Source: Bursaphelenchus xylophilus
Lineage: Eukaryota; Nematoda; Chromadorea; Rhabditida; Aphelenchoididae
Assembly: GCA_904066235.2 (NCBI GenBank)
Contig: CAJFCV020000002.1
Span: forward strand, 2,046,001-2,110,000
Reading direction: 5' to 3'
Length of the DNA stretch: 64,000 nt
Notes under the pieces: generated by a model
Told to the model about the DNA's origin: nothing
Databases searched by the model: none
The model's input: the letters and a program-made list of their open reading frames with translations, nothing else
Shown: positions 19,516 to 59,400 of the stretch, in pieces
Position numbering within the stretch: position 1 is the stretch's first letter
Layout: the number at the start of each line of letters is the position of its first letter
Program-made: the position numbers and the translations under genes

Positions 19516-20524
19516 AATTGCCCATAAATCGCCATCGCATGCTTAAATTTAATTTCTTACCAATTTCGGAGAGATCGGTGTAGCTTCGTCCGAATTGCAA
19601 TTTGTGATCAGTGGTTTGTGATTTCCCCGGTAAAAGCTAGCTAATTTGTTTGCTACAGAACCATACAAGTTGGAGTTTAAATTTGATTACAATTCTATTT
19701 TTTAAAACCTAGTTCTCCGAAAAAAATGCGGGGAAAAAATTTGCACAGTGCAATTTTATAATTTTTTGCACGGTGCGGACGCAAAAATAGGCTTAAAAAT
19801 AGGATGCACAGTGCAGAAATAAAATTTGTCGCACGGTGCAAAAAATTTTTTTTTGGCAAAAAATTTTTTGTTATTTTTTGCACAGTGCAAAAGTTCATTT
19901 TTTGCACAGTGCGGGGGCAAAAATAAGCTTAGAAATGCATTGCACAGTGCAGATTTTTTTCACTAAAATTTTGTTACGTCATTTGCACTCTACTTTCAAT
20001 GTTTTTCACATAATCTACTTGCTTTTTCCAAACTCTTTTGTGTTGCTCAACATGTCTCGGAGCAAGTATAACGATTTCCCGCCGCCTTCTTAGTCATTAT
20101 AAAACAAACATTCTCATACTAGAGACTACATGTCGGACAGGGCCAGCCACTTTAAGTTCGAGTGACAGACTATCGTTGCCCCTGATTTTGAATATAGTTT
20201 TTGGCTCTAGGTTGTAAATTAATCAATTTTTGTGTAGGGAAATTTTGGAAGATTTTCTTCTCCAAGGGTGTGGCAGCAAAAAGTTTTGATGATTTATAGC
20301 GTGATTCATAATGATTCCGACAAATAGACAGTTTGCGTCAACACTTTATTTGCCATTCCGAAACTAAAAAGCTTTTATTGCACCGTACGATGGTTTTACC
20401 GACTCTTGCGCCGTGAAAAAAAGAAATCTTGGACCAAAATAGACAGAAATTCAAAAAACAACCTCATTTTTAACAATCGGAAAGCCGAGGGCCGTCAGGT
20501 TGAAGGTATTTTACAATTTCTTCC
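19516..20524. repeat. Gene-free stretch with GCAC-N-GTGC palindrome cluster (about 19740-19955)
   Basis: About seven copies of TTGCACAGTGCAA-like motifs, with GCACGGTGC variants, occur in some 215 bp of T/A-rich sequence. The rest of the stretch shows nothing recognisable. Confidence 0.6.
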
Positions 20525-20720
20525 AGGTGGGGTCGAACTCGCGATAATCAATATTGTTGCTTAACTTGCCAGATCGGACGGGATAACGCACTACCAATTG
20601 GGCAACTTTTCTCTCTTTCGGAAATGGCGCCAAAAAGAGCGCGCCAAAGTTAGTGTGTTGCAGTGCGTTTTCCTGTCCGATCTGGCAAGTTAAGCAACGA
20701 TGGTTCGAGTCCGCATGGAG
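20525..20720. mobile_element. Head-to-head tRNA-like element, copy 1
   Basis: Two inverted arms share TTGCTTAACTTGCCAGATCG and its complement. The left arm read on the minus strand has a box-A-like TTGCCCAATTGG and box B GTTCGACCC. The right arm on the + strand has GGTTCGAGTCC. I could not fold either arm into a standard cloverleaf, so these are tRNA-derived or tRNA-like repeats rather than working tRNA genes. Confidence 0.65.
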
Positions 20721-21559
20721 CGAAATGGTAAAATACGGCGTCTCAGACGGTTATTTTTGAAACGAAGGAATATTTGACAGCAGAGATGGCTTTTTAACGG
20801 TGAAATGAAAATTTTAGTTGCAGAGATCAAGTTTCTCAGAGCAATGATCACTCATTTTTGAAATTTGTTTATAGTAAGTCATCAATCTGCAGCTCCACGT
20901 GTTTGTTGGTATCGATAATGTTGACATTTGCACCAATCTCGACAAACATGTTGTTTTGCCGACCTTATCGCCAGCCGCCGCAGTTCATATACGTATTTCG
21001 AAAAGGTGGGATGCGTGGCGTTGTAACTTTTATTTCTCGCTTCTTTCAATTAGTCAATCAACTTTACAACGATCCCCCTTTTCACCGTTGAATGTTATCG
21101 GAGCAAAGGGGCGAGATGCAAAACAAAACTTGTGCTCCTTAACATTGTGGAGATTACGAAGCAAACGTTGAGGATGGTCACGTTTTTGTATGGTTCGATT
21201 AGAAATTTGGGCTGTTAATTCATCAGAAAATACATTCCATTACAACTCGGGGAGCAATTAGAAGTGAATTTTAGACTTAACTTTGGGAAGTTTTAGAGTT
21301 TCGACTAGAATTCAGAGAAACAATGACTACAAACCAGAACGAAAAATGATTAGTGACTAACTCAGAGCAATTTTCCAATTGGAAAAGGTGGAAAGTCAGT
21401 GCGCGTTTGATAAATTAGCAACGGCGTGGGCGATTGAACCGTTCGACGTGAAAACTGAACGCTTGTGGCTTCGAAAGCCCACGCAGGCATGAGTTGAAGT
21501 TCAATTAACCGTGTGCGATCATGATACGTCTTTTGTAGCATGTTACATCGATTTTCCTC

Positions 21560-21756
21560 TGGGTGGATTCGAACTCAGGCCAATTATTTGTTGTTGCTTA
21601 ACTTGCCAGATCGGACGGGATAACGCGCTACCACTTTGGCAACTTTTTCCTTCTTCGAAAATGGCGCCAGAAGGAGTGCGCCAAAGTTAGTGTATTGCAG
21701 TGCGTTTTCCCGTCCGATCTGGCAAGTTGAGCAACCGAGTTCGAGTCCGGCCAGGG
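21560..21756. mobile_element. Head-to-head tRNA-like element, copy 2
   Basis: On the minus strand, box A TTGCCAAAGTG (complement of 21632-21642) is about 58 bp from box B GTTCGAATC (complement of 21566-21574). The right arm ends in GAGTTCGAGTCCGG. The arms are joined by an A/T- and GCGCC-containing spacer. Confidence 0.7.
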
Positions 21757-22599
21757 GTAAATGTAAAATATGGCTTCGGAATCCTTTGAGTTTGATTCTA
21801 CATGGAGGGAAACGTTGAAATACGATATTTTTAATAGTTTTTTTTTGCTGGAAAGTAAATCTTGCTTGATTTTTTGTGGAAAAAAGCAGAGTGAATGGTA
21901 AAATACGCGATAGCTCAATTTCGCACAAAAACACTTCCCTAGACACGTGTTCGCCGCACACAGTAACAATTGAGTTTGAGTTTTCAATGCTCAATGTGTT
22001 GAATGATTAAAAAAAGTTGTTGATATTGAGAGTAAATAGCCACCAAAAAGATTGTAAACATAAAGTTGCCTTCTTCTCACGTTATTTGGTGGGCAAAAGC
22101 ATTTGATAAATCATAACAAATTGCAAACAAATCGTTGGAAATACAGCGAAAACACGCTTTCCTGTGCGAACTGTGACCAATTTTGTGTTTTGAACTTCGT
22201 ATTCGACTTCAGCGCAGCAATAAAATCATGCTGAGATATCGGGGTGGTCGGACAAATGTAACGCAACGTTTCGCCGCGAGGCGTGGGCCTTGTAGGCTTA
22301 TCAGTACGGCTTGCTCCCAACATTTCGCTGCTCGGACAAAACGTTTTAATGACTAAAAATTAAGCGCTGAGCAAACAATTGGCGGCGCAGGGCCTTTCTT
22401 TCTTCGTTTCCTCGGGTTTATCAGTACGTTTGGGGGAACAAAACGAAATGTTTTTGAGCTCGTTGAACCTTGGCACTTTTTTGCAATGTTTTGCCGGAAG
22501 ATTCGTTGATTTTTAATCAACTATCACCTTGGTTTTAACTTTACTACACTTTCGCATTGTGCTATGCGACAAATAATGTTAATTCCCTCTCTGCACAGT
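21757..22599. other. Gene-free stretch
   Basis: Nothing was recognised. GTAGGCTTATCAGTACGGCT near 22290 recurs in part near 22405 (TTTATCAGTACG). Confidence 0.3.
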
Positions 22600-23400
22600 G
22601 CGATTTTTTATTTATGCGGTTTTTTACATTATAAAGAAGCAAATATTTATTTTGAAGACAAGTTTTTACAATGCGATATATTACATGACACAATACCGAG
22701 TTTGTTTTTTTGCACCGCGCGGAAGCTAAAATGGAGCAAAATTTCGACTGCACCGTGCGATATTTGAATTTCGAATATCTAGGAATTGGTAGGCGAAATT
22801 ATTTTTTCCACTGCATAGGATTAATGACAGCATCGCTAGTTACCCCCTGAACACAAAAATTTAATTTACAGCACGGTGCAGAGTCTAAAATTTAGGGAAA
22901 AATCGACTGCACAGTGCAGAATTTGATTTTCAATCAACCGCACTGTGACGGGGGCAAAAAATTATTGCGTTGCATGGAAATTACCGCCATTGAAGGTTTT
23001 TACACTCTCAAAAAGTTTTTAGCACCCTGCGGCGGCCAGAAAAGATGCCTAGTTTCGACTGCACAGTGCAGAATTTGATTTTCAGTCAACCGCACTGTGC
23101 AGAGCGCAAAATTTTTTTCGTTGTATAGAAATAACCAACCTTGAAGACTTCCACACTCCTCATGTTTCACTCTGCGCACCCTGCGGCGATCAGAAAAAAC
23201 ACCAAGTTTTGTCTGTACAGTGCAGAATTCGACTTTCCGTCAACCGCACTATGCAGAGCGCAAAAATTCTTTGCGTTGCATAGAAATAATCAACATTAAA
23301 GGTTTCTACACTCCACATGATATACTTTTACTCTACGCACTCTGTAGAAACCAGAAAAAGTGCGAATTTTTGACTGCACAGTGCAAAAGGCAATTTTTCG
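22600..23400. repeat. GCAC-N-GTGC cluster with a 153-161-bp tandem repeat
   Basis: GACTGCACAGTGCAGAAT-like starts at about 22905, 23058, 23211 and 23372 mark three tandem units of 153-161 bp. Each contains an inverted pair of palindromes (GCACAGTGC and CCGCACTGTGC), TTGCATAGAAAT and a TACACTC block. Additional palindromes lie between 22600 and 22890. Confidence 0.75.
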
Positions 23401-23700
23401 AATTCGTTGAAAATGCGGCTACAAATGGTCACGTTGACCTGAAATTCATCTGCAACTCCATTACTTAACGCACTATCTTAACATTACTAATACGAACTTT
23501 CCGAATTGTCTTTGATTAAACGGATAATAGGAGTGATAATAGAAGTGTATACGTTGTGTCTTGAAACTCCCCCATCTTATGTCTTCGTTTTGCGTTTGAA
23601 CCGTCGACTTGTAAAGGAATCGCGAAATTGATGAAAATTCAGGGAATTCGTTGCGTAACAGAATCTAAATTGATATAAAAAAATGGTTCGTCTCGGCATA

Positions 23701-23853
23701 TCCGTCTGTCGGGAAAATAATGAGGGCTCTACCGCATCGAAAATCGCATCGCCGCCGAGAAAATGAATTGTGTCGCGGTAAAATCAAACTACTTTTGGCT
23801 TCAGCGACAAGATCGACGGCGACAGTGTACTCATTATTTTCCCGACAGACTGA
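23701..23853. mobile_element. TCAGTCTGTCGGG MITE, subtype 1
   Basis: 153 bp from TCCGTCTGTCGGGAAAATAA to CCCGACAGACTGA, preceded by TA. The interior carries TCGCCGCCGAGAAAATGAAT. Confidence 0.8.
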
Positions 23854-23912
23854 AACGAGGGTCATTTGGAAAATGAGAGCCGAAAAGGCACCCTATGTGA
23901 AATAGTCATTTA

Positions 23913-23950
23913 TCAGTCTGTCGGGAAAATAATGAGGACAATTTCGATGA
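23913..23950. mobile_element. TCAGTCTGTCGGG MITE, left terminus only
   Basis: TCAGTCTGTCGGGAAAATAA follows TA, but no matching right end occurs before the palindrome cluster at 24035. Confidence 0.55.
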
Positions 23951-24034
23951 GTTTTTATAGAAAGATTGGCATCTCCGGTAGAAATCGGTCGAAATTTTTT
24001 AGTTAGAAAGTGGCAAAATAATTTTGATTTCTGC

Positions 24035-24400
24035 ACTGCGCAAGTGAAACAAACAGAAAAATTTTAGACTACAGTGCACACAAAGTATTTTCAATTTTTG
24101 CACGGTGCAGTTTCGACTTTTTTTTGGATTTTAAAATGTGCGATTTTTTGCACGGTGCAGCTCAAAAAATGGGAAAATTTCGGACTGCACTGTGCAAAAA
24201 ATTTTTTTTTTTTTTTTGCACAGTGCAGTTTCGAACTTCTTTTTTGGATTTTAAAATGTGCGATTTTTTGCGCGGTGCAGCTCAAATAAATGGTTAAATT
24301 TCGAACTGCACTGTGCAAAAAAAAAATTTCGATTTTTGCACTGTGCAGTCCAAAAATTTTAAAAATTTTAGCACAGTGCAAAAAATTAGTGCTTTTTGAT
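24035..24400. repeat. GCAC-N-GTGC cluster with two 119-bp direct repeats
   Basis: Units starting near 24101 and 24220 share TTGCACGGTGCAGTTTCGA-like, TTTTGGATTTTAAAATGTGC and GGTGCAGCTCAAA blocks. About ten palindromes are present, alternating GCACGGTGC and GCACTGTGC. Confidence 0.75.
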
Positions 24401-25114
24401 TTTTTCATTAAAAAAATCGGAAATTAAATAAATAAATCCGTTTTTCCCTTTTTTCTAATCACCGATTACTGTACTTTTTACTCAAAAATCGCTGTTTTGC
24501 ACCGTGCATTTTGTATTTTTTTATCTTTGTTCAGAGATCCGGTGGTCGGACTCACGCATTACTGTATTATGCACTCATTTATTTATTTATTTTTTTTTTA
24601 TTTTTATCTCCCATTTTTCACACTGCACTAACAATATTTTGATTTCCCGAATTTCCACACTCCATCGCACCGTGCGGATCACGCCGGAAAGTGCGAAATC
24701 AGCGCTGTGGAGTACGGTGATGTTTTTGTTTTTGTACTTGTTGCAGGAATACGTTTTTGCGATCGGAGCGGGCCGGACTTGTTGTTTTCCAAGCTCGGCC
24801 CCGAATTTTCCGCTCCCCATTCTTTTGCGCTTTTTTTTCGAAAACATAGAAAAAGTGCAAATTGCTGAATAAAAAATAGTAAACACTGGCGTACATGCGG
24901 GCCTTCGCGGGCACTGGGCACGACACACACACAAAAATGTTTTCGTTTTATGCAAAATGCCCTGTTTTTTGGGGATTTTTGACCTTTGCCGAAAATTTCG
25001 GATGAAGAAATGCAATGGAAGGGTCCGAACTACGGTAGTTTTGTGTTCTGGGTGGAGATACGGGTTATACGAACATTGCGAACGGAGTTTAATCCAAATG
25101 GAAAGAAATTTCTT

Positions 25115-25314
25115 CTACCGGGAATCGAACTCGCATTAATCCACTGCACGGTTGCTTAACTTGCCTGATCGGACGGGATAACGCACTACTGGGTCGACAA
25201 CTTTTGGCATTGCCGAAATCGCCGGCCAAAGAGAGCGCGCAAAAGTTAGTGTGTTACAGTGCGTTTTCTGTCCGATCTGGCGAGTTAAGCAACCGAGTTC
25301 GAATCCGGCTGGGA
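25115..25314. mobile_element. Head-to-head tRNA-like element, copy 3
   Basis: The left arm has GGGAATCGAACTCG (box B complement) and TTGCTTAACTTGCCTGATCG. The right arm ends GAGTTCGAATCCGG. Confidence 0.65.
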
Positions 25315-25850
25315 AAAAATGTGAAATACTACTGCGGAAGTAGTTAGCGGTTGATCTACGGCTTACCACTGATTGTACGAAAATCTTTTTGATCATTCAG
25401 CTCTTTCGATTTTTGAATTATGACCTTTTGAGAGCACTGAAGAAAAATCGTGTTATTCCGGGCAGCGAAAATCGCCCAGTTTTGTTGACCTTTTCCTCCC
25501 CGGATTACGGTGATTTGACGGTTGTTTTTTAAACACCAGCGAAAAGGAAACGTGTTTACAGTGCAATCCAATATTATAATTGTTTTTATGGAAGTGCATT
25601 TTTCGATCTAAATATACTGTTGTTTGTCTTGTAGGGTGTTATAGTCGTATTACTGTAAATTACATCATTTTGTACCATAGTCGTTGGTTTTTCAATGATT
25701 CAGCCATTTTTGGGTATTTTTTGGTCCTTCGAAATTTTGGGATTTTTTGAATTTCTTGTGGTAAATTGGTTATTAAGGGCCTGTAATGTGTATTTAATGA
25801 GTCTATAAGCAAGTTTCAGCGATTAAAACTGATACATTTTACATTTTTCG
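25315..25850. other. Gene-free stretch
   Basis: Between two tRNA-like elements; nothing recognised. Confidence 0.3.
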
Positions 25851-26060
25851 GTAGGTCGATTCGAACCCGGATGAGTTACCGTCGCTTAACTTGCCAGATC
25901 GGACAGAAAACGCACTGCAACACACTAACTTTGGCACACTCTTTTTGGCGCCCCTTTTTCAAAAGAGGAAAAAGTTGCCAAAGTGGTAGTGCGTTATCCC
26001 GTCCGATCTGGCAAGTTAAGCAACCCCATCGTAATTAGTCCAAGTTCGATTCCCGGTATA
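25851..26060. mobile_element. Head-to-head tRNA-like element, copy 4 (opposite orientation)
   Basis: The right arm has the best promoter-like boxes of the family: box A TTGCCAAAGTG at 25975-25985 and box B GTTCGATTC at 26044-26052, 58 bp apart. The left arm begins with GATTCGAACCCGG. The TATCCCGTC and TTTTCTGTCC arm types are swapped relative to copies 1 to 3. Confidence 0.7.
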
Positions 26061-26819
26061 ATAAATCTTCTACATTTTATAACATCTTAGTTTTTTACTC
26101 TAATTTATGGTCCGATTGGCTTCTTCCTTCTACGAAAAGGTCAAAATCAGCAAGAAATTTTATATCGTACTCAAATTTCCCTTACACAACGTGCTTCCGG
26201 CTTAGGGCCTATTAAAAATTGTTTTTCCGTCTTTATATTGCGTACTTTCCGGCATTTCCGGTAATCTCTCGAGAGGGTTTGCTTTTTTATTAATGCGCAA
26301 CGTTCGTATAAAGTTATGTTGCGTCATCGGACGACATTTTTGTCATCGTTTTTTGATGATTATTGTAATTTTTGGTATTTGAAATTATTTGTTTATTACT
26401 TGGAATTCTTTCGTATTTCTTCGATATTCGATATCGGTCTGGCGTTTCGAACACGCGGAAATCGGTTGTAAACAACGAATGCCCCGGATTCGACGCCACT
26501 TTTATTCGGCGACTTTTTGCGCCCCCTTGATCGCGGACTTGTTTCAGCCCGAATCCCAGGCGCACGGTCGGTCTTTGCGACCGCCGAAGAGATCATCGGG
26601 TCCGAAATGGCGACTTACAAAAGCGAGCAATTCGGTCCCGCACCTTTTTTTTGTTTCATTTCGATGATCGCGGCGACCAATCACGGAATAATCGTGCAGT
26701 TAAAGTGCAAAAATGCGAGGCATCCGGGAATACGGTCGGTCACGGGGTTGAAACCAAAATATTGTTTCTTTTCAACATATTTTTACGGCTGCTTTTATGG
26801 CTGTTGTAACAATTATTCG
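26061..26819. other. Gene-free stretch with a GC-richer island
   Basis: An island at about 26440-26740 is richer in CG than its surroundings and open on both strands for 60-110 codons. No domain and no clear splice sites were seen. It may be regulatory or a decayed exon. Confidence 0.3.
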
Positions 26820-27030
26820 ACCGGGAATCGAACTCAGGTTTATCAACCGCACGTTGCTTAACTTGCCAGATCGGACGGGATAACGCACTACCACGTCGAC
26901 AACTTTTGCCTCTTTCGGAATCGAGCGCCTAAAAGAGAGTGCCAAAGTTAGTGTGTTGCAGTGCGTTATCCTGTCCGATCTGGCAAGTTAAGCAACAGTG
27001 CGGCTGATCCGAGTTCGACTCCGGGTGGAG
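26820..27030. mobile_element. Head-to-head tRNA-like element, copy 5
   Basis: The left arm contains GGGAATCGAACTC and TTGCTTAACTTGCCAGATCG. The right arm ends CGAGTTCGACTCCGG. Confidence 0.65.
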
Positions 27031-27609: not shown

Positions 27610-27970
27610 TTTTCTGCACAGTGCAAATTTGAATCTTGGATGCGGAAAAAGTGCACAGTGCAGAGGACCAGAGTAAAAAATGATGTCAAAAATTGATAGA
27701 GCACAAATATAAGCCATTATTTTTTTATTGCACAGTGCGGTGAATTGCCAATCCGCCGCACCGTGCGAGAAAATAAAATTTCTTTCGCACAGTGCGATGA
27801 TTTTACTTCTTTATTTAAAACTGCAGGGTGCAAATGGAAATTTATAGCAAAATGGAGTCAGAAATTTTAAGGCGGACCTAATCAACATATTCGGTTACTG
27901 TAAAGGCCATTTTTTCGAATAAGAAATGCGCATTACGAATTTTAAATTTTTTGCTGCACTGTGCGGAAAT
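27610..27970. repeat. GCAC-N-GTGC palindrome cluster
   Basis: About eight motifs (GCACAGTGC, GCACCGTGC, GCACTGTGC), sometimes in close inverted pairs as at 27731-27800. Confidence 0.65.
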
Positions 27971-32495: not shown

Positions 32496-35445
32496 GTATA
32501 AAAGAGTTTTTTGTTAGTTGGAAATCATCAAAAATTTGACGTCAGAAGCCCATAAGAATTTTAGAATTTTTCGATTTTAAAATTTTTCGATTTTAAAATT
32601 TTTTGTCACAAATTTTCATTTGTTGTTAGAATTAGATGGCACACTGGGTCAGTAAAAAAATCAGTTTTTTCTTTACAGAATTTTCGAGTTATTGTCAAAA
32701 AAGTTTTTTTCTTTACGACTCTTCATTCAATTGGCAAAAAAATAAAAAAAAAAAAAAAATTTTTTTGATTTTCAATTTCAAAATTTGGGGTTTGATTACA
32801 AGCACAGTGAACAGCGTTTCCACAAAAAATCACATTTTTATGTAAAGAACTGAAAAAGATATAGCCAAAAAAAGTTTTCGTCTGCCCGACCCTCCTCATT
32901 TTACGTGCTCTCTCGCTAAAAGACTGTAAATATCTCCATTCCGCTTGCAACAATTGAGCTGAAATTTTTTTATATTTATTTGTGGCCTTTTTAAAGTGTA
33001 ATACATCAAATTTACAGAAGATTCTAACTGTGTTCTTCGTACATCTCCATTTTTTTCATAAATCAAAATTTATTTTTTAATTTTTGATTTTTTCGAAATT
33101 TCAAAAAAATTTTTTTTGCGTTGTCTCCGTGATTCCTTGCACTTTAACGATCACCTTTCCACTTTTAAATCTCTTTCAAGTTTTTTTTCCACCGTTCTTG
33201 ACAGTAATGTTGTTCGTTTTCAGATCAGATAACTTGATTTCCACCATGTTGTAATCGATTTTTTCCGAGTGGCCAATTCCCAGATTTTGTTGCGGCCCCA
33301 AACAAAGTTCGCTGAGGGTTTTAAAGTGCCGACCGCAACTTTTCTTTTTTTCTTTTTTTTTCATTTTTTTTTTGTAATTTTTGATTTTTTCGCATTTTTT
33401 TCATTTTTTTTATTTTTAATATGAAAAAAAATACATTTATCGCCTGAAAATGACTTCCATATTCCCCATGGATAAAAATAAAATAAAATTTTATTGATTT
33501 TTTTCGCAAAAAATCAAAAAAAAAATTTTTTCCTCTGCACAGTGCGGTAATCAAAAAAAAATTTTTTTGGAATTGCTGTAGTAAAGCAAGGTCCAAAACG
33601 ATCTGTACGATTTGTCGTCCGCAAAAACAGAATTTGTAGTGGGATCAGCTGGCTTTCAGCTAACAAATCCTACAAAAACCGAAAGGTTTTTAATAAAAAA
33701 AATTTTTTGAACAGGGGGGACCAAGGGCAAACATTTTTGGAAAAGAAATTTTTTTTTAAGAACAACAAGATACAAGTTTTATATGCAGAATGTTCAACAG
33801 TCATTGTTGCAAGTCGATTTTCTCTCGGAATTTTTCGAAAAATTTAGGAAAAAAATAAAAAAATAAAATTTTTGGGGGTTCAGGCAAAAAATCTTGTTTT
33901 TTTGGGCTGAAAAATCGTTGAAGAAAGGAGATAAAGTTGGCAGAAATGTTACATATGCCTTGTAGATTATATTCATTCTTTTTTCTTTTAAAAAAATTTG
34001 ATTTTTTAAAAGAAATTTATTGATTTTTCTAATTTTTTCTATTTTTTGTGTATTTTTTTTTGATTTTTCTCATTTTTAAATAAATTTTAATACAACTTGG
34101 AGTCCACCTATTCCTCCACTTGACCCCAATGGTCCCAAAAATATTCCGAAAGGCAGAATTCCCATTTTATTCAGCCACTTTTCCCTCCTTTTCGCCTCAC
34201 AACATCTTCAAATCCAGTTTCGTGTTGGGCCGTTTTTCGGCCGAACAGAGCGGAGAGACGACGAAGAAATCCTCGGTTTTAAGTGGGTTCAGAGTTCAAC
34301 GCGACCAACTCCCGCGAACAAACACAAAAGGGAGAGGGCGCTTTTTTCGGTTGATCATGGAGCATGTATCGGAGAAAAAATGGGGGACTCAAAAGACGAG
34401 AGGACGAACAATGTAATCTCTGTTCGGCTGAAGGGAGCAGCGCACTCGATGATCCGTCCTTTGTGACTGTACTAATGAACTGTGAAAACTTTTTCGAGAG
34501 AGAGGAATTTACAGTAAAATTGTCAGCAAATTTGGGAGAAGGACAAATTTTTTGCAAATTTCGGCCGTTTGGCGACCGATAGTTTTGTAAAAATACTAGC
34601 ATGTTTTATTACAATGTCAGAAAAGGTATTTTCCTTCACTGGCCAAAATATTTTTAACCTAAAAATAGCAAAACACATAAAAATTCCAAAAATTGTGCGA
34701 TTTTCGGCTGAAAATTGGGCGATATGGCGAAATTAGACATTTTTAATGCTCTCTTAGACCATTACATGGGCAATAAATATGGCATAAGTCATTCATTTTT
34801 CTTTTTTCATATTGTTTTCAATATTTTTCAACAGAAAAAAATTTCCAATAATTTTTGTGACATTTCGTCCAATTATCTAAAACTACTTTCAATGACCTCA
34901 TAACCCATACTACGACTATCTGTGAGTTCAAAACACGGCTGTGACAAGCTACTTGGTAATTTATGATGAATTTTTGATGCCTCTTTACAACTTTTTGTTG
35001 TGTTGTTTGTACTAGCCTACAAACCCTACCTTCAAACTTTTACACCAACAACAAAAGACCCTCAAAAATAGCTTGCTTTATTCCCAATGACGCATAATGC
35101 TTCTACAATTTTGTTTCGTCTCAACGTTTCCATTACACTTAATTGCCCCAAGGGAATACTGTAATTGGACCCATTAAACCCACGTCTCTCTAAAACTGCT
35201 TACAACTCTATCAATTAGTACAGAGTGATCGATTAAAGTTTGGTTCCGTTGATAAGAATCCATTAGTTGTTAATTGCGAAGCATTTGATAACATTGCCCA
35301 AGGGGGTTGTTTCGAAATTTGTGGGGGATTTTTTGGAAAAAAAAAAGAATTTTTGGGATTTTTACAATTTTTGCAATTTTTAAAGTATAGAAAAATGGTC
35401 AGTGAAGAAGCAGAGCAAAGTCCAGAGAGCAAAAAAAATTAAACG
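32496..35445. other. Gene-free, T/A-rich stretch
   Basis: Homopolymer-like A/T runs dominate 33050-34100. A diverged repeat E copy lies at about 32690-32960. An island of higher GC at about 34110-34420 is open in both directions but shows no domain or splice structure. A lone GCACAGTGC occurs near 33538. Confidence 0.4.
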
Positions 35446-39400: not shown

Positions 39401-40632
39401 CAGTCAAAATTCCAGTTCAAGTATAATCTCTTTGGAGCTTGGGATTTTGATGAAAAATAATTTTTTCTGTAAAATCATTCCTTTCAAAGAATAAAAGACT
39501 TTTTGCACAGTGCATATACGTATGAATGTTGAAGTGGACTGTGTTTAGTCGAGTAATTCTACTGAGCAAGAGAGAGTGTGAAGAGGATTTAGAGGTTTAA
39601 TGCGGCCAGCCGGAGCGAGATCTTTGAACAAGTGCACTTTTAAGGGCAAGAATTTTATTATTTTTTCGAAATTTATAGGGCTTTCTTGGAAAAAGTTGCG
39701 TAATTAATGGATGGCAATGTTTGGAAATGATGAAGAGGGAATTTGGAGGTTTTTTGGACAAAACTAAACGTATTTTCTGAGAGATTTTTTTTGAAATTTG
39801 ACAAAAAAAGTTTTTTTTTGATTTTTGAAATTTCGCAAAAATGCTTTTCATCGGTTGAAAATGTTTTTCTAAAAATTCTAGCTCATGATTTGCTTTAATT
39901 CACCTAAAATATTAGACCGAAAACAAAAAAAAATTGATGGATACGAGGTGTGAGGCGGGTGGAAACTCACAAAAAGGTTGTAAGAGGTGCCCCCAAGGCC
40001 CGGTAAAGGTTTTCAACGTCTTTGAACGTTGCGCGGACGCTCTCCAAGGCTTGCCGGATGCTTGGAAAACCCTTATAAGACGTCCACTTTTTCTAACTTT
40101 AATTGTCCTAACTTTCATTTTCTTGACCCTGAGCTATCGCTGGTATTTTCTTTGTGATTTTTTCAACTAAAAATGATTTTTTTGTATAAATTTTTTACTC
40201 GACTGCACTTACCGGAATATCAATTTCGTCCCAATAATTTTATTGTCCCAACTTTTTGCTCGTTCCATTTCATTTCCATGCCGCTCCCATCCATAATTAT
40301 TCGCCCTTTAGTCGAGTTTTTGTACGCTGGTCATGCTTTATTACTTCCTTTTGTTGGGGATTTGTAGTCTAGGTCATTACTCAATTTTGTGCAAAACAAA
40401 ATTTCCGAATAGCGGATGAAATATGCAAAATTAGTGTATAACGCAAAGTCATGACAAACAGTTGACGAAATAGCTCTTTGCAGCCATTTTTCCGCGCTAT
40501 CGCTCGCCTTTCAAAAGCCATCTTTCGTACTTTGCTGCCGGGAACATTTTATTGAAGGTTTTGTAGGCCGCGCAAGGGAGTCTCCGGTCCAAGTGATGCG
40601 GCAAATCCGCTTATAAAAGCACATTCTCGCTA
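36417..40632. other. Gene-free stretch with GC-richer islands
   Basis: No supported exon. GC-richer islands occur at about 36510-36740 and 38870-39270. Between them, 37000-38300 has little obvious repeat content. A lone GCACAGTGC occurs near 39506. Some islands could be conserved regulatory DNA; a comparison with sister species would decide. Confidence 0.35.
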
Positions 40633-43990: not shown

Positions 43991-44579
43991 GCACAGTGCA
44001 GATTTTTTTTTCTTTTTTGCACAGTGCAAAAATGTTTAATTTTTTTGTGTTGCACAGTGCAAAAAATGACAAAAAATTTTCTGCACAGTGCAGTGAGAAA
44101 TAATTCTTTTTGCACTGTGCGGAAATAATTTCTCCGCACTGTGCAGGAAAGCGACAAAAAATATTTTCAGCACAGTGCAGGGGAAGAAACAATTTTTATT
44201 CCGCACTGTGCGAAAAACGGAAACAATAAAAAATGCACTGTGCAAAAAAAACTCTTTGCGCTTGCACGGTGCAACCATAAAAAACAGGAAAAATCTGCAC
44301 TGTGCAGCACTGCGACGAAAAATTTCGATGCATTTCCTTGCACGGTGCAGTGAAAAACTTCAAAAAATTTTGCACTGTGCGAAAAAAGACTTTGCGTTTG
44401 CACTGTGCGGTGACAAAAAAATGAAAAAATCCGCACTGTGCAGCACCGCGACGAAAAATTTCGGTGCATTTCCTTGCACAGGGCAGTAAAAAAACGGAAA
44501 AATTATTTTGCACTGTGCAAAAAACCCACTTAGCGCCTGCACAGTGCAGTGATAAAAAAATTTTTTTTTGCACTGTGCA
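43991..44579. repeat. GCAC-N-GTGC palindrome cluster, about 19 motifs
   Basis: Motif starts at 43991, 44019, 44052, 44083, 44112, 44136, 44170, 44203, 44235, 44264, 44297, 44340, 44372, 44400, 44433, 44476 (imperfect), 44510, 44539 and 44570. Most spacings are 28-34 bp. The spacer sequences are mostly unrelated A-rich DNA, so this is not a simple tandem repeat, though part of 44280-44480 is a direct duplication (GACGAAAAATTTCG blocks). Confidence 0.88.
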
Positions 44580-45149: not shown

Positions 45150-45362
45150 TTGCACAGTGCAGTCGATTTTTTGATTTTTTTTTGACTGCACAGTGCAATC
45201 GCGCAAAAATTGCAGCCGCACTGTGCGATAAAAAAAATGAATTTCAACCGCACCGTGCAACCAGATTTGTCTTCTGACCGCACTGTGCAATCAAAAAATT
45301 TTAAATTTTTATTGCACTGTGCAGTCATGATACTGTTTTAAATCGCAGAGTCGGCACAGTGC
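45150..45362. repeat. GCAC-N-GTGC palindrome cluster
   Basis: Seven motifs (GCACAGTGC, GCACTGTGC and GCACCGTGC), typically about 30-40 bp apart, immediately upstream of the tandem array at 45388. Confidence 0.75.
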
Positions 45363-45387
45363 GGAAAATGTTTTTTTTTTTGTGAAT

Positions 45388-45963
45388 GCACAGTGCGGTG
45401 CTTCAAAAGTTCGATCGCACCGTGCGGAGCTCAAAAAGTTCGATTGCACAGTGCAGGGCTCCCATAAAGTTCGATTGCACAGTGCGGTGCTTCAAAAGTT
45501 CGATCGCACCGTGCGGAGCTCAAAAAGTTCGATTGCACAGTGCGGAACTCCAAAAGTTCGATTGCACTGTGCGGTATCTCCAAAAGTTTGATTGCATAGT
45601 GCAGGGCTCCAAAAAAGTTCGATTGCACAGTGCAGGGCTCCCAAAAAATTCGATTGCACAGTGCGGTACTTCAAAAGTTCGATCGCACAGTGCAGGAGTC
45701 CCAAATTTCGATTGCACAGTGCAGGGCTCCCAAAAAATTCGATTGCACAGTGCGGAGCTCCCAAGGCTCGACTGCACTGTGCAAAAAACTCCACAAATTG
45801 GTTTGCACAGTGCGGTACTTCAAAGGTTCGATTGCACGGTGCGGAATTCCCAAAGTTTGATTGCACAGTGCGGAAAGCTCCAATAGTTCGATTGCACAGT
45901 GCGGAAAATTCCAAAAGTTCGATTGCACGGTGCGGAACCCCCAAAGTTTGATCGCACAGTGCA
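45388..45963 (+). repeat. Tandem array of 29-32-bp units around GCAC-N-GTGC
   Basis: About 19 units each contain GCAC(A/C/T/G)GTGCGG or AGGGCTCC-type spacers followed by CAAAAGTTCGATT. Central base variants (GCACAGTGC, GCACCGTGC, GCACTGTGC) are mixed, and one unit has GCATAGTGC. Repeating ORFs in all frames are by-products. Confidence 0.92.
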
Positions 45964-46855
45964 ATTGGACCTTTGCTGTCAAAAACACAACCGCGTTTTC
46001 TGAGTGGGATTTCCGTCCAAAAAACCGAACCCAAAAGGGATGGAATCACAGTTGCATGCATAATAACGCCATGCTTCAAGGGGTCCGGAATGCCAGGAGG
46101 GATCAAAAACGAACATGTACGTACGCAAACAAACGAACTTGACGTTTATTGTTCTTTTTGTGTCCTTCTTTCTTTCTTTGCGACCTCTGATCTTGGGCTA
46201 AATTTAGTCGCGCGTTCAAGAGGTTCGAAAATGTTTCGACGTCGTTCATAGCAGGCCAATTTGTGTAAACATAAAAAGTGGAAAAAATTGATCGAGTCAA
46301 GTCTTCCCCTCGCCATTTTGGTCAACTTTTTCTCTCCGCCGAAACACCGTTAGAAATGGGCGGAAAAAACAGCATCAAGGCAGAATAGTCCTTTCGCAAA
46401 GTCGACTCATTTTGTAACGTTTGCACTGTGCGAAAAAAGTCAGGGCGACGGCCGAAAAAGCCTATTGCACGGTGCAAAAATGGAGAAATTGCACAGTGCA
46501 AGAAAAAATCTTGTTTTCGCACAGTGCTTGTCGCCGATTTCGGACATTTTTTTTATGCTTTTTATTTTCGTTTTTTCGAGTTTTTTCGCGTTATTTTTTA
46601 ATGTAAGATTCGTATTTTACATTTCTAAAAAAGATTTTTTTTCAGGTTATGCCGCAACTCCTTTTTAATGGTTTTTATGGTATTTTTTTATACATCAAGT
46701 CCAATAACTATGAAAAGTAAAAAAAGTTTTTTTGGGGTTTCATTGCAGCAGTCGCTGCTCCAAGAAAGATGACTAAATTTTCTTGTGAACTATGCAAAAA
46801 AATTGATAGCAAAGGGTCTATTGCGGTCACCGGACCATTTGGTTTGACGTGTTTA
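45964..46855. other. Gene-free stretch with a small palindrome cluster
   Basis: Three or four motifs (GCACTGTGC, GCACGGTGC, GCACAGTGC) lie at 46420-46530. A GC-richer patch at about 45980-46330 has no recognisable coding features. Confidence 0.4.
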
Positions 46856-48439: not shown

Positions 48440-49690
48440 AGTGCATTTTGACCTTTTTTCACCGTGCAATCCCGTTTGCACAGTGCTTTTTTGCTGGTCC
48501 GTTCGCAAAGTCGCTGAAATGATTTCGGCGACATGCACTGTGCCAAAAAAAGTCAGGGTGCGAGCGACACCCGAAAAAAGCTTATTGCACGGTGCAAAAA
48601 GCGAGAAATTGCGCAGTGCAAAGTGGACTTTGGTTTTTGCACAGTGCATGTCGCAAAAGTTACTATATCGCCGCGACACAGCTCAAAATGGCTTTTTGTC
48701 GCGCGATATTTCTGTTGCACAGTGCAAAATGTCAAATGCACGGTGCGAAAAAGCGGAGTTCTTTTGGGCAAAAAATTCCACGCACTTTTGAAAAAACCGA
48801 AGTAATTCCAACTTCTTATCCCCAAAATCTCCATTGACATTAATTTTTAATCTGTTTGAGACGCTAAGGACCCAACGAATTCATGTGTGTGTTGTGGTCA
48901 AACAACATTTGATCCGTTGAATTGTTTGGCCGTGCAATTGACCTTTCACCGAGGTAAAAGGCGAGTGTTTTACGGTCTGTTTTAGTGTTTGAACAAGTTC
49001 TTTAATCCCAAAAAACTCTGTTTTAAAGATGACTAACAAACTACTGTCTGGTATTTTCATAAAGTGCGTGGACATTTGCGCGCACTGTGCGAAAAAAGTT
49101 TTCGTTTTTTGCACCGTGCATTCGCCTTTTTTTGGATTGCTTTTCGCACTGTGCGTTTGAAATATCGCCGCGACATAAGCGGGTTTCAATTATGCCGCTG
49201 CGACAATGCGATTTGCACAGTGCAAATGGTCTTTTTGACTTTTGCACTGTGCGAAAAGAGAAGAATGCACTGTGCGAAAGTGAAAAAATGTCCATGCACT
49301 TTGTGAAAATAATGCGACTTCGGCGCGTTTTAAAAATCGCGAAAAACGTGTTTTGCACAGTGCATCTTTGATTTTTTTGCGACATGCACCGTGCAGACAA
49401 AGTCAGGGCGACAGCTCAAAAAAGCCTCTTGCACGGTGCAAAAAGCTGTAAATTGCACAGTGCAAAGTGAACCTTGACATTTTGCACTGTGCAACGGGAA
49501 TATCGCGCGACAAAAGACATTTTGAGCTGTGTCGCGGCGACATAACTTTTGCGACATGCACTGTGCAAAAACCAAAGTCCACTTTGCACTGTGCAATTTC
49601 TCGCTTTTTGCACCGTGCAATAAGCTTTTTTGGGCTGTCGCTCGCACCCTGACTTGTTTTGCACAGTGCATGTCGCCAAATCACTTCAGC
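48440..49690. repeat. GCAC-N-GTGC cluster arranged as a 1.15-kb foldback
   Basis: About 48535-48735 is inverted relative to 49480-49680. Shared blocks include GAAATTGC(G/A)CAGTGCAAAG, GTGGACTTTGGTTTTTGCAC and the ATATCGCGCGACAAAA motif. The loop contains the TATTTTCATAAAGTGC element at 49052-49311. Roughly 25 palindromes lie in the whole segment. Confidence 0.8.
49052..49311. mobile_element. TATTTTCATAAAGTGC foldback element
   Basis: 260 bp with inverted ends TATTTTCATAAAGTGCGTGG and CCATGCACTTTGTGAAAATA. The interior has about seven GCAC-N-GTGC motifs and AATATCGCCGCGACATAAGC. It suggests that a transposable element carried the palindromes around. Confidence 0.75.
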
Positions 49691-50395: not shown

Positions 50396-51015
50396 GCACC
50401 GTGCAAGCAACCCATTTTGCACGGTGCATTTGCCATTCCGCACTGTGCAAACGATTTTTTAGCTGCGATGAAATCTGCGTCGCCACGAACTTTGCGAGCG
50501 CGACAGACAATTGCACAGTGCAAACAGTGGTTTGAAATGGCCCGCGCACCGTGCACGGAGGCAAAATGTCGCTGCGAAAATCGCGAAAAAGTTTCTTTGC
50601 ACAGTGCAGTTGACCCAAACGCACCGAACGGTGCAAAAACACCATTTTGCACAGTGCATTTGTCATTCTGCACTGTGCAACCGGAACATCGCAACGCTGC
50701 ATCGCTGCGAACTTTGCGAGCGCGACAGACAATTGCACAGTGCATTGGACATTCCGCACAGTGCATTTGTCCCAAAACCATCATTTTGCACAGTGCATTT
50801 GACATTTTGCACTGCGATATCGCCGCGACGACAGCTGCGTCGCCGCGAACTTTGCGAGCGCGACAAATTGCACAGTGCAAAAAAATGGTTAAAAATTTTC
50901 GAGAATTGCCCCGCGCACCGTGCAAAGAGAGGCGAAGAATCGCGAAAAAAGTGGTTTGCACAGTGCAGTTGACCAAACGCACCGTTTTGCACTGTGCGTT
51001 TTGAATTTCGTGCAC
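50390..51015. repeat. GCAC-N-GTGC palindrome cluster with GAACTTTGCGAGCGCGACA repeats
   Basis: About 22 palindromes. The block CGAACTTTGCGAGCGCGACA recurs near 50486, 50707 and 50847, each followed by a GCACAGTGC motif. Long ORFs on both strands result from the palindromes. Confidence 0.8.
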
Positions 51016-54320: not shown

Positions 54321-56335
54321 TATAAGAGCGAAGGAATAAGAATTTTTTCTCGAGCTCGAGAATGGTTGCTGGATTCGCTACCAATTTCAAAAAGTAGCGA
54401 AATGATCGATTTGCGACATGGTCTCGGTAGCGAATCCTTCTTTTCGCGACCTCCGAAAAAAGTCGGTCGCGAATCGGCGTTTTCGCTACCTCCGCGAGAG
54501 AGGAGGTAGCAAAACGGCGTTTCTGCGACGGCGCGGAATTGGGAGGTAGCAAATCCGCGGATTTGCGACGTCCCAAATACATATAAACTCCGCCCCCTGA
54601 GTTTCGCAGCCAACCACCGCGTTTTGGCCTTTTTTGACAAAAAAATACCATTTATGGTGAAAAATTTTGCTTGTAAATCGTACATTTACGAAATTATGAA
54701 AGAAAAAGTCTTCTTCGTTAAAATATTTATTAATAAAAGACGTACATTTTCGTATAAAATATGCGTTTTTTACAACATTGTCCAAGCATTGCCGGAGAGT
54801 CGATGGATGGAACTGAAGAACATGTTTTGCCAGATATGGCCGAAGTCGAGGGATGGATCATGGCCGCCAAATTACCTTCCTGGAAATCAAAAGCAATGTA
54901 AAATTTCCTTATCATTTTCAGAAAAAACACCTTCATTTACCTCATATTGCATGTGTCTAATCCGAGCATCGAAATGGGCACAGCTTTGAGCAAAAATATG
55001 CCCGACGGGAGTGTAATCGGAATTCCAGGTAATAATTTGTTACCTAAAAACAGAATAAGAATACTTAAATCCAATCTTACCTCCTTTAGCAACTACCACT
55101 TGGCCATTCCCTTGTTCGATTTCATTATTTCTGCCGCCTGTGTACGATTTATAAGGCTCTTGCCTAGAAAAAAATTGGAAATCTCGTCTAAAATCAAAAA
55201 ATAATAAAAAAAACAACTTACCATGGAGTCAAAAAGCCTTTTTTGCCCGCCAATTTCGTCCCCGATGTTTATGGCGATCACCTTGAGCCGGTTTGTCTTC
55301 TAATTCAGCTTCTCTGCATCTATTTGGCCAATTTCAACAAAAGGAAACATAAGAAAAAGGAAAAAAAGAATTTATGAAGTTGCGAATGTTTTCGCGGCCC
55401 GTGAAAACGAAATGCCACGCAGTCCGAGAACGGATTTTAGGTCCAATAACAAGGATGTCCTCGGCGTTATCAATCAAATCAACCGTTTTTTAGCCATGGT
55501 AAGCTGTTTTGTTATTATTTTTTGACTTTAGACGAGATTTCCAATTTTTTTTTTAATATTATTCATGGCAAGAGTCTTACAAACCGTTTTCAGGAGGCAG
55601 AAACAACGAAATCGGACAAGGGAAAGCCGTGTGGTAGTTGTTAAAGGAGGTAAGATTTGATTTAAGTATTATTATTCTGTTTTTAGGTAATAAATTGTTG
55701 CCTGGAACTCGGTTTCACTCCAGTCGGCCGCATTTTTGCTCAACATTATGTCCGTTTCGATGCTTGGATTAGACACATGAACTATGAGGTAACAGAAGGC
55801 TTTTTTTCTAATCAGAAGGAAATTTATATTGATTTCGATTTCCAGGAAGATCTGTAAGCGGCCATGTTCTTCAACCCCATCCATCGACTATCCGGCCGTA
55901 TTTAGACAATATTGTGGAAAACCCGCATATTTTACACGAAAACGTACGTCTTTTATTAATAAATAATATAACGATGAAGAGGGACGTTTTTATTATTCAT
56001 AATTTCGTAAATGTACGATTTATCAGCTAAGTTTTTCACCCTAAACGGTGTTTTTCCGTCAAAAAAGCCAAAACGTGATGGCTGAAAAATTGAGGGGGGC
56101 GGGGCTTGTTTTGGGACGTCGCAAATCCATGGATTTGCTACCTGCCAATTTTGCGCCGTCGCAAAAGGGCCGATTTGCTACCTCCCAATTTTGCGCCGTC
56201 GCAAAATGGCCGATTTGCTTCCGACGTCTTTTTTGGAGGTTGCAAATTGAGGTTTCCGCTACTTTTTGAAATTGGTAGCGAATCCAGCAAACATTATCGA
56301 GCTCGAGAAAAAATTCTTATTCCTTCGCTCTTATA
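54321..56335. mobile_element. TATAAGAGCGAAG foldback element, about 2.0 kb
   Basis: Left arm 54321-55224 and right arm 55493-56335 are diverged reverse complements over about 850-900 bp, around a 268-bp unique spacer. Ends TATAAGAGCGAAGGAATAAG and CTTATTCCTTCGCTCTTATA are exact complements. Both arms hold CTCGAGCTCGA-like and GGATTCGCTACCAATTT blocks and splice-like signals. The spacer and right arm encode a split exon-like ORF. Its terminus matches the 17640-19515 element, so they form one superfamily. No transposase identified. Confidence 0.82.
55379..55642 (+). pseudogene. Exon-like ORF inside the foldback spacer and right arm
   Basis: An open stretch containing KRIYEVANVFAARENEMPRS runs to ATG before GTAAGC near 55499. 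A TTTTCAG acceptor near 55593 leads to a short terminal exon ending KPCGSC and a stop at about 55642. The left arm holds an inverted, diverged copy of that last exon. Frame and start are uncertain. The KRIYEVANV piece loosely recalls the E2F winged-helix motif, but too little is present for a call. Confidence 0.25.
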
Positions 56336-56343
56336 TACTAATA

Positions 56344-56491
56344 TCAGTCTGTCGGGAAAATAATGAGCATAATATCTCTGGACCTATCATGTCGTTGAAC
56401 TGAAAAGAAATTTGATTTTGTCGCGATACAATTCATTTTTCGATCTGATTTTTGATACGACAGAATCTTCATTATTTTCCCGACAAACTGA
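56344..56491. mobile_element. TCAGTCTGTCGGG MITE, subtype 1
   Basis: 148 bp with TA on both sides, ends TCAGTCTGTCGGGAAAATAA and CCCGACAAACTGA. It starts 8 bp beyond the foldback terminus. Confidence 0.85.
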
Positions 56492-59400
56492 TAGTCCTTT
56501 ACGCCCCATATACATTGCATATATATCCTCATATCCCCCACTTCTTTTCCCTCTCACAGTCCAAACATTTCGCATTTTGTGATCTCTTCGCCTCGAGGTT
56601 GAACTTGTCGTGCTCCTCTCCGATTGCCCGCATTGCTTGAACCCCGCGATCGCTTCGAGAACGAAGCCGCTTAGCCGTCGCCCGAACGAGTCACAACCCC
56701 GGCAGTCACACACACACGACACAGCAGAGAGGAAGAGAGCGAGGGGAAGAGTCAGAGAGCGCGTACTCGTTCTGTTTGCTCGGCGCGTCGCCGGAGGGGC
56801 GGTGTCGGCGTGTGTGTATGATGTTTGTTTCCTACACATTCTGTTTCTCAGTTTGTTTCCTTCCACTCGATTTTCGGTGTGTGTGATTCCTCGCTTGGAT
56901 CCGCTCGGTCTCTTCGCTTCTCTCCACTCCGCAATCCGCACTTTAAAGGTTGACGATCGTAATCGCGAAGGCGATGATTCTCTCCCCGTCCTTCCTTCAC
57001 CGCGCCCAGTTACGGTCGCTGATGATCTTCGATCCGCTACGATGGTGGACTCGTTGGTTCGCGGGCCAATTAGCCTGAATACAGTTGCGTTTACAATGCT
57101 TTAAAGCGAGTTGGGAGTCAGCGAGGACATCAACCCATTGTTGTGGATGGGAATTTTGTTTTTGATGGGGTTACGGTTGTTTTCCCTTAATTTTGTTTGG
57201 CTATTTACAACTTTAAGATTATCTGTAAGCTGCTAAGTCAACAACAATTAATTCTAATGAGTTGGAGGTCCATATTTTCCATTTTCGCCTTGTTTTATGG
57301 TCAAAGATCCCTAATTTTTCAATTTTTTGGAGTTTTCCTACAATTTTCGTGATATTTCACTTGTTTCTTTTGATGTACATGTTCTAGAGTCGAAGTATAC
57401 GAGTAGCTTGTGTTTTAAGACGTTGAATTTTTGTTGTAGATCGCTAAGTCACCTATATAATAATGACTCATTTTTGCACTGTGCAAGCGGCCAAAATTTT
57501 GAATTTTCTCGGTGATGTTAAGACATAAAAAATTTTTTCGATAATACACTTGTTTTCTAGATCATATTCTCTTTGTATATATCAATTTCAACTTGATTTT
57601 TTTGCCAACTACCATTAAAATCTCGGTTTAAAATTTTTCGCACCGTGCAATCACGTTTTCTCTTATTTTTCTAAAAATTCTTGCGCAATACGGTTTAAAA
57701 ACCCTCCTCTTGCCACTGTTTTTCATCGCAAATATTTTCCAACTCCCATAGGGCCAATTCACCCCGCGACAATTGCGTAGATATCAACTTTGTTACACAA
57801 AATTTTGTCGCCACCAATTAACGGCGTATTGATGTTACCTTTGTCGCCCAAATTCCCCGAATTACACCCGACACCCCTTCGAACACAGTGCTCGTTCTTT
57901 GCGCCCCAGTACTTGGTTTTTTTCCGTTTGTCTACACCTTGGAAACTCCCGCGAACTGCCTAATCTCATGTAACATTGCATGTGCTAGCCGTGTACTTTA
58001 TGGGAAAGGAATTATCGGAAATTTTGATGGTCGTGTATTGGTGGTATTTTTAATGAAAGCACGATTTTTTAGCGGGTTATTGCATAGATTTACGATTTTG
58101 CCCTATTTGCACTGTGCAAAAGAGATTTGTCGCGTTTGCACGGTGCAAATTTTATTTTGCACAGTGCAAAAGAGTTTTGTCGCATTTGCACGGTGCAATT
58201 TTTAACTTGCACTGTGCAAAAAATTTTTCTCTTCGCGCACAGTGCGAAATTTTTTGTTTGGATTTTTCGCACTGTGCGGATGAAATTCGATTTAAAAGCA
58301 TGGTAAAATGGATTACCTCGAGCATGATTTTTAATTTAAATGACACGTGACATACAATTGATTTATTTTAGAACTTTGTAGTTCAATTTTTGCACTGTGC
58401 GGTGCAGTTTTTTCATTTTAGTTTTTTGCACCGTGCAGACAAAAATTTCGGTTTTAAAGCTTTGTAGAGTAAAATTCAAGAGGTCAGAAAAATTTTCAAC
58501 GTCACAAACTGCTCATAGACATTACACGTTACTGAATTTCAAAATTTTTTTGGACTTTTTTGCACTGTGCGCTCCAAACTCGAGCTCTCTATTCTCTGCA
58601 CCGTGCGAAAATTTGGGGCTTTCAAAAACCTCTCTCTACGCTTTTTGCAGCTAAAATCTCGAACCTTTTCGGCACCTGAACTCTTTCACAACCTGTTACA
58701 TACACTCCACACACTACATTCGGCTCAAACTCAATTCCATTTTTACGCTTTTCAGGAATTACAAACGACAACGTTTGGCTTATGCCCTGTGGTATTCCGA
58801 AAAACGCCTGCGGGTTTTGGGGCCGGGGATTATTTGTTTTCGCAGAATGGAGGCACGCGTACGGGCGTTTTGTGAGCTTTTTTTGATAAAAAACTTATTT
58901 TTATATTATCCATGAGCAAATATTTTTGCAATTCTCGAATTTTCTTGAACTTTCGAGCTTGCTTGTCGCTAAAATTGGGTTGACAAAGAATTTGAGGCAT
59001 CAAAAAATATGTTTTTGAACTTTTAGTGCATAACAAAATGGGTTAGATTACTGTCCGCATCCAACTATTTTTTGTCGGAGATCAGCCGTCGAGATCAGGG
59101 AAAAGCGGCAGGGGAAGGAGGAGAAGAGGCTAACTGCTGGTTTTTTCTGCATAGACGCGACTTTTTAGCTGCTGTTTTTTTTTTTGAGATTTCGAGTTTT
59201 CTGATTTTTATTTTTTCGATTTTTTAAAATTTTGCCTCGGGCATTTTTTAAAAAATTTGATAAAAAATTGTAAATGATAAGATTTTAAAGATTTTTTGCA
59301 GTATTTTTTCGATTTTTACGATTTTTTGCAGTATTATTTTCGATTTTTTTTAATTAAAAAATTTAAAGTAAATTTTTTTTTTCAGTTTTTTATTTTTTTT

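Follow-up and report, generated by a model that had tools for sequence, protein, structure and literature searches.

The genome of Bursaphelenchus xylophilus contains tens of thousands of intact copies of a short dyad-symmetric word, YGCACNGTGCR, which are gathered in arrays, lie predominantly in the chromosome arms, keep a minimum distance from each other and share one core amid strongly diverged spacers; the eight fixed bases of this core resist substitution, while the base at its centre varies. We consider it probable that the arrays are binding sites for one sequence-specific protein, which reads YGCAC-N-GTGCR and for which selection acts at the site itself. From the pattern in the DNA we infer this protein, dimeric binding, selection for binding and any chromosome function. 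So many intact words within drifting repeats represent a strong footprint of DNA-binding activity, and the word can be used at once as a probe for the putative binding protein.

Abundance and form of the word

In the window, i.e. the whole 64-kb stretch of DNA analysed, we found 130 exact copies of GCACNGTGC, compared to a mean of 0.36 and a maximum of 2 in 100 dinucleotide shuffles. Two copies (10604 and 10746) are located outside and 128 inside the region 19740-58615, for which the original prediction had claimed more than 100 copies. Copies with a single mismatch amount to 33, all 24 possible variants pooled. Intact cores therefore outnumber mutated ones, which also applies to the window together with 12 chosen loci; the lack of such an excess had been named beforehand as evidence against the prediction. 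The phenomenon is larger than initially noted: the clustering is not special to the window and is found genome-wide, with 39,685 occurrences of YGCACNGTGCR, 44 of the reversed pattern and 20,282 of TGCACNGTGCA.

Among 538 sites examined, the positions ±5 are occupied by a pyrimidine and a purine, respectively (T 70%, C 26%; A 74%, G 24%), the positions ±6 by T in 62% and by A in 60% of the cases, and the centre base is free. The form first described, TTGCAC...GTGCAA, consequently holds with respect to the core and the free centre, whereas its outer flanks are less fixed than proposed. By reasoning, formation of an RNA hairpin can be dismissed, since a one-base loop is not feasible. No earlier description of YGCACNGTGCR arrays was found among the open-licence papers listed, and the main text of the genome paper from 2011 (PMC3164644) contains none of the terms "motif", "palindrom" and "satellite".

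Organization of the arrays in the window

When sites were grouped with a new cluster starting at each gap of more than 300 bp, and groups of at least three sites were counted, we obtained 11 clusters, in line with the "at least ten" expected from inspection of the sequence. Seven sites are located at 19743..19950, another seven at 22593..23384, overlapping a 154-bp tandem repeat (22903-23319), nine at 24100..24675, overlapping a 120-bp tandem repeat, and six at 27616..27964. Single sites at 33537..33545 and 39505..39513 are followed by 18 sites with a spacing of about 30 bp (43991..44578) and by 26 sites at 45152..45962, where the segment 45387-45962 is a 29-bp minisatellite of 19.3 copies (77% matches); nearly all of its units carry the core, with all four centre bases represented. 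Four sites (46423..46527) fall within a TA-flanked MITE that is present here as a diverged copy (46386-46541). The next two clusters, with six sites at 48478..48746 and 15 sites at 49082..49669, are associated with the two arms of an inverted pair (48494-48735 and 49474-49708), which are 93% identical. Further downstream we found 15 sites at 50396..50997, two sites 164 bp apart (57476..57648) and 11 sites at 58109..58606. Outside the range originally given, the window harbors two isolated sites (10604..10754) and, on the forward strand at 3432..3632, an isolated diverged copy of the TA-flanked MITE without an intact core.

Several arrays are minisatellites whose head-to-tail units measure 23-35 bp and include the core. 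Neighbouring sites in arrays are mostly 20-45 bp apart, and no gap below 20 bp was present among 523 neighbour gaps; 407 of these measure up to 60 bp, of which a memoryless model expects 37% to be shorter than 20 bp. A search for helical phasing of the sites revealed no clear period.

Dyad-symmetric words are typical of dimeric factors, and the cluster at 58109..58606 precedes a nuclear-receptor exon (open frame 59554-59991) by about 1 kb, as might be anticipated if the words were ordinary transcription-factor sites or enhancers. However, roughly 40,000 sites exceed the 18,074 genes predicted in B. xylophilus according to the genome paper (PMC3164644), and most clusters of the window are located at about 19-51 kb, where none of six reading frames had a Pfam match. 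Overall, two of the 20 frames tested matched Pfam families (cwf21 and the nuclear-receptor zinc finger), gene finding being partial in both counts. We therefore regard regulation of individual genes as very unlikely. A role at chromosome scale, i.e. in arm chromatin, nuclear-envelope attachment or meiosis, is most likely for the putative protein, which probably binds as a dimer that leaves the centre base free.

Resistance of the core to substitution

The original prediction had proposed a conserved core with varying flanks. This could be validated using alignments that were made with the cores hidden from the aligner: among best partners, 97 of 116 cores were unchanged compared to 52 expected from flank identity. 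The conservation tests leave out short alignments and pairs of more than 95% identity (more than 97% in the divergence-bin test), and the locus L008, which overlaps L007, was excluded from all conservation, motif and cluster analyses. The core-masked tests comprise 116-119 cores, 98 of 116 compared within one locus, and pairs within an array are not independent of each other.

In the core-masked alignments, 51 of 952 fixed core positions had changed (5.4%), the left and the right half contributing alike (25 and 26 changes), compared to 31 of 119 centre bases (26%; p = 2e-11). The eight bases thus resist substitution and their own centre does not, which supports the earlier proposal of selection on the core itself. 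Where the flanks were 80-90% identical, 37 of 43 cores remained unchanged, compared to 391 of 944 control 9-mers from the same arrays. Between loci, the unmasked test gave 176 of 208 unchanged cores against 26 expected, or 194 of 233 against 30 with a laxer length limit. The centre had also changed more often than the flanks in these alignments (10.5%). The preference of alignment for similar flanks is the probable reason for this excess, and a fast-mutating centre base a less likely one.

These data bear on the possibility that the word is common only through young or homogenised copies, i.e. through passive minisatellite amplification or gene conversion. The minisatellite structure of the arrays, the internal likeness of some of them (80-90%) and a weak likeness of spacers between clusters above chance are consistent with such a process. 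Conversion tracts, however, cannot yield a centre that varies freely amid eight conserved bases, and core retention remained steady, with 79-85% of the cores unchanged across all bins from 60% to 90% identity. Since the centre alone varies, we conclude that conversion or recent copying is refuted in the main, and we consider it a most improbable explanation. Upkeep of the word is not universal: two isolated diverged MITE copies, the one at 3432-3632 of the window and one at 7203 of L023, lack an intact core, from which we conclude that the word is not maintained everywhere.

A second motif, TTTGTCGC/GCGACAAA, is 28.7 times denser near the sites. Of the 33 clusters, 23 contain TGTCGC. In comparisons between loci, 16 of 41 copies of the co-motif were unchanged compared to 10 expected, and among all pairs 84 of 105 compared to 45 expected, with some control hexamers performing nearly as well. 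Because it is missing from 10 of the 33 clusters and only weakly kept, the co-motif represents no more than a possible partner of the word.

Relationship of the spacers between clusters

For the comparison of spacers we used 33 clusters with 506 sites, leaving out L001-L006 and L008. With a sensitive comparison and a score of 15, the clusters fell into 22 groups, i.e. one of 10, one of three and 20 clusters alone, and these 20, with 295 of the 506 sites, could not be linked confidently to any other cluster by their spacers. Lower scores merged the 33 clusters into 17 groups (score 12) and nine groups (score 10); an earlier core-masked search had given 27 groups and missed plain relatives. At score 10, 46 links between clusters were detected, compared to 2-8 in controls shuffled in 8-base blocks, in which score 15 was reached by 0-1 pairs. 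With 5-base blocks, the respective numbers were 6-14 and 1-3 pairs, and plain shuffles and reversed spacers reached score 10 in 0-2 pairs; the latter two erase the T-rich/A-rich trend around the core, which the 8-base block shuffle keeps. The weak likeness between clusters exceeds the block-shuffled controls at every score, and for this reason several arrays may descend from common repeats, as far as can be judged from spacer likeness. We therefore do not regard the arrays as unrelated. The "unrelated spacers" of the original prediction are only partly correct, as repeats are common to some clusters and others resemble each other weakly but above chance.

One source of shared repeats is a TA-flanked MITE, approximately 195 bp long, with CTAGTCC...GGACTAG ends and up to four sites per copy, which are internal to the element. 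Terminal inverted repeats and target duplications were found for this one family, to which at most 10 of the 33 clusters are linked. The word could accordingly be a subterminal repeat of DNA transposons or foldback elements that is bound by transposase, which would have stayed intact since only bound copies moved, the arrays being remnants of such elements. Besides the MITE family, this is favored by the inverted pair at 48494-49708 with its 20 sites and by the group of 10 clusters, which includes those of the MITE and of the inverted pair at a score reached only 0-1 times in the controls. However, the majority of clusters have no confident link, some links reflect a single copy of the MITE within an otherwise different and larger array (L029, L030), the sites of the MITE are not at its ends, and local minisatellites keep the sites without any transposase. 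We thus consider this explanation unlikely. That one or two transposon families account for all sites, which had been named at the outset as a refuting condition, is not what we observed, although greater divergence could hide kinship.

Under the preferred reading of protein-binding sites, tandem duplication, and partly a MITE, would multiply the sites into arrays. Spacers and centre base would then drift, often past recognition, and copies that lose the eight contact bases would vanish or fail to propagate.

Chromosomal location

Sampled sites, collapsed to 97 places, were distributed over the left arm, middle and right arm as follows: 9/1/13 on C1, 6/1/9 on C2, 5/0/6 on C3, 9/1/5 on C4, 9/0/0 on C5 and 8/0/15 on C6. 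Central places are rare (3 of 97), which contradicts a uniform genome-wide density. Both arms are occupied on five of the six chromosomes, and C5 is occupied on its left arm only. Another dispersed repeat is bound to the arms to the same degree, with none of its 52 collapsed places in the centre, from which we conclude that the arm bias needs no special cause; enrichment in the arms was therefore rejected as evidence proving a function. Of the TA-flanked MITE, by contrast, 8 of 36 scored copies were central.

The original prediction had raised meiotic pairing centres as in C. elegans, bound by HIM-8/ZIM zinc-finger proteins, with a peak near one end of each chromosome. The arrangement of a single short word in arrays on chromosome arms agrees with this idea, and PMC8455136 reports that Dmc1, Mnd1 and Hop2, i.e. 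the canonical pairing route, are missing from Clade IV nematodes; our search for Mnd1 in the B. xylophilus genome likewise gave no match. The X motif named in the original prediction agrees with the word at 8 of 10 comparable positions, but it was chosen post hoc, and 327 of 200,000 random and 487 of 200,000 shuffled 11-mers reach the same agreement, so that the likeness to the HIM-8 motif is suggestive at most. Moreover, the sampled sites occupy both arms of five chromosomes instead of one end, the same core, the only one sought, is present on all six, and PMC8455136, in the parts considered here, lists homologues of HIM-8/ZIM for many genomes of Clade V and mentions none of Clade IV. Pairing centres in the form proposed are therefore not supported, and we judge them highly improbable. 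In a more general way, the arrays may still serve meiosis, heterochromatin or the kinetochore.

With low confidence, we suggest that the arrays could be the DNA half of a Clade IV chromosome-organising system without Dmc1 and of an origin independent of HIM-8/ZIM, in which a putative protein on the arrays of both arms would attach or align homologues in meiosis, and better-bound arrays would be better transmitted and hence spread. If the protein acts in meiosis, this would bear on how chromosomes pair in nematodes that lack both Dmc1 and known pairing-centre proteins.

Comparison with known systems

In Oscheius, a palindromic motif marks the break points of DNA elimination, at which telomeres are added (PMC9071541). 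The B. xylophilus word is also a short palindrome in a nematode genome, but it forms about 40,000 arrayed sites, and the initial 10 kb of the six large contigs contain none of them. In C. elegans, each chromosome has its pairing-centre motifs, which are 12 bases long, at one of its ends, and four proteins recognize them (PMC9071541). Their arrays (HIM-8, ZIM-1/2/3) resemble those described here as short nematode words arrayed toward chromosome ends, which would work through a bound protein; they differ from the single dyad-symmetric word with its roughly 40,000 copies, which in the samples lie on both arms of five chromosomes.

En/Spm-type DNA transposons carry clustered, short, conserved subterminal words that are bound by transposase. 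One B. xylophilus MITE family bears the word in a comparable manner, whereas its sites are not at the ends, and 20 of the 33 clusters have no confident link.

The CENP-B box of alpha satellite is a short protein-binding word that persists amid divergence of the remaining monomer. The B. xylophilus word differs from it, its spacers do not form one satellite, and nucleosome-length spacing was dropped as a general rule, because there is no clear genome-wide excess (459 triples at 170-176 bp vs 445 at 200-206 bp). Nevertheless, six sites of L026 (4115-4987) follow each other at distances of 172-174 bp, their spacers showing hardly any likeness, and the arrays share with the CENP-B box a core that is conserved within a diverging repeat, with 5.4% of core bases changed compared to 26% at the centre in core-masked alignments.

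Abundance and spacing of the symmetric sites

The window contains 130 intact copies of the core GCACNGTGC, compared with 0.36 expected, which bears out the original prediction of well over 100 copies. Across the genome (78,253,340 bp in eight contigs, the window corresponding to C2:2046001-2110000), TGCACNGTGCA occurs 20,282 times and its reversed pattern 17 times, YGCACNGTGCR is found 39,685 times and its reversed pattern 44 times, and if up to one mismatch to GCACNGTGC is allowed, 60,270 sites are obtained versus 8,238 for the reversed control. Taking about 30 bp per unit, we estimate a total of about 1.2 Mb of site-bearing DNA. Sites were present in six of 20 genome stretches picked blind to them (60, 53, 36, 4, 3 and 2 sites), the richest being the unplaced contig C8 (14.6 kb). 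The DNA examined in detail amounts to about 325 kb, part of which was selected for having sites; intact copies outnumber those with a single mismatch by 529 to 108 in the window and 12 further loci.

The consensus of 538 sites in the examined DNA is YGCACNGTGCR, in which T/A is less strongly preferred at ±6 and the centre base is near background in composition; this table was built by searching intact cores and by itself proves nothing on the eight fixed bases. Among 523 gaps between neighbouring sites none is shorter than 20 bp; for the 407 gaps of 60 bp or less, memoryless spacing with the same mean would put 37% below 20 bp. All-pair distances at nine loci reveal a period near 30 bp. At L026 4115-4987, a locus on C2 at about 10.0 Mb, six sites follow each other at intervals of 172, 172, 174, 172 and 174 bp despite spacers that are 30-39% identical, which is odd for a decayed satellite; this interval was not general when checked genome-wide.

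The core is retained amid diverged flanks

In unmasked self-alignments, 79-85% of pairs kept the core unchanged whichever identity bin between 60% and 90% was taken, compared with 8% to 51% for control 9-mers and 42% to 72% for the centre base. Because BLAST seeding favours intact cores, the test was redone with all intact cores set to N before aligning. In these core-masked alignments the eight bases were the same in the best partner for 97 of 116 cores, where the identity of the flanks predicts 52. With flanks 80-90% identical, this applied to 37/43 cores versus 391/944 control 9-mers of the same arrays, and with flanks 70-80% identical, to 8/9 versus 96/309. A slightly laxer masked set showed changes in 51 of 952 core letters, spread evenly across both halves, versus 31 of 119 centres (Fisher p = 2e-11). 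That a single free base sits among eight kept ones argues against conversion or youth of the copies as the cause of this sameness, and fits base-specific recognition.

Kinship of the arrays

A core-masked search assigned 33 clusters of at least three sites (506 sites) to 27 groups but overlooked obvious relatives, for example a pair of inverted neighbours in locus L031. A more sensitive comparison, in which spacer columns alone were scored against 8-base block shuffles, yielded 22 groups (10 clusters in the largest, 3 in another, and 20 clusters standing alone, the latter with 295 sites) at a threshold reached by the shuffles in 0-1 pairs. Since weaker spacer links outnumber every control (46 pairs vs 2-8 at score 10), some of the 20 lone clusters are probably distant relatives. 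The predicted "unrelated spacers" are indeed strongly diverged, often beyond recognition, but these weak links speak against a strict lack of relationship. A distant shared origin would leave the case for selection intact, because the core would then outlive its surroundings.

A MITE of about 195 bp belongs to the group of ten; its ends (CTAGTCC...GGACTAG) adjoin TA, consistent with a putative TA target; some links in this group depend on one MITE copy within a different array. No core survives in two diverged MITE copies that lie outside arrays (window 3432; L023 7203), while four remain in a comparably diverged copy within the cluster at 46423; three copies are too few for deciding whether retention depends on clustering.

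Chromosomal location and neighbouring features

Location was sampled with three rare flank variants (69, 40 and 37 places, collapsed at 20 kb to 97), of which 3/97 fall into the middle chromosome thirds. Arm location is not peculiar to these sites, since another dispersed repeat has 0/52 central places. For the MITE, scoring covered 40 of 2,072 candidate places; 8/36 are central, with the caveat that the scored copies are those that match best and that a single one of the 36 aligns with the inner query part alone. On C5, sampled sites number 9 in the left third and 0 in the right, versus 2 and 7 for the other repeat (p = 0.002, a comparison picked post hoc).

A second motif, TTTGTCGC/GCGACAAA, is 28.7-fold enriched near sites; it was noted in clusters at window 48478-50997 and in L016, L026, L029 and L030, and as TGTCGC it occurs in 23/33 clusters. 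The window also holds a 183-bp tandem repeat in four copies (35681-36405), with related copies on the same chromosome about 8 Mb off (L026 9114-9300), an inverted pair of about 0.9 kb with 75% identical arms (54320-56336) and a relative in L006 on C1, and a nuclear hormone receptor exon (59554-59991; zf-C4, E 2.5e-17). Inverted copies of a 37-42-bp sequence (GTTGCTTAACTTGCC...) are numerous at 20553-27008, some of them near stretches resembling tRNA B boxes by eye; ARAGORN found no tRNA.

A putative protein footprint

A protein footprint would most simply account for a symmetric word that keeps eight of its nine positions, recurs no closer than 20 bp and sits amid strongly diverged surroundings; whatever goes beyond this footprint, we infer. 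A six-frame genome search gave no match to the Mnd1 domain, but the control genomes were likewise without a match above the cut-off, leaving this negative result without a positive control. Since every Clade IV nematode sequenced is reported to have lost Dmc1, Mnd1 and Hop2 (PMC8455136), and B. xylophilus is placed in Clade IV (PMC9071541), a meiotic reading merits testing, although it is not thereby made likely. HIM-8/ZIM homologues are reported from many Clade V genomes (PMC8455136).
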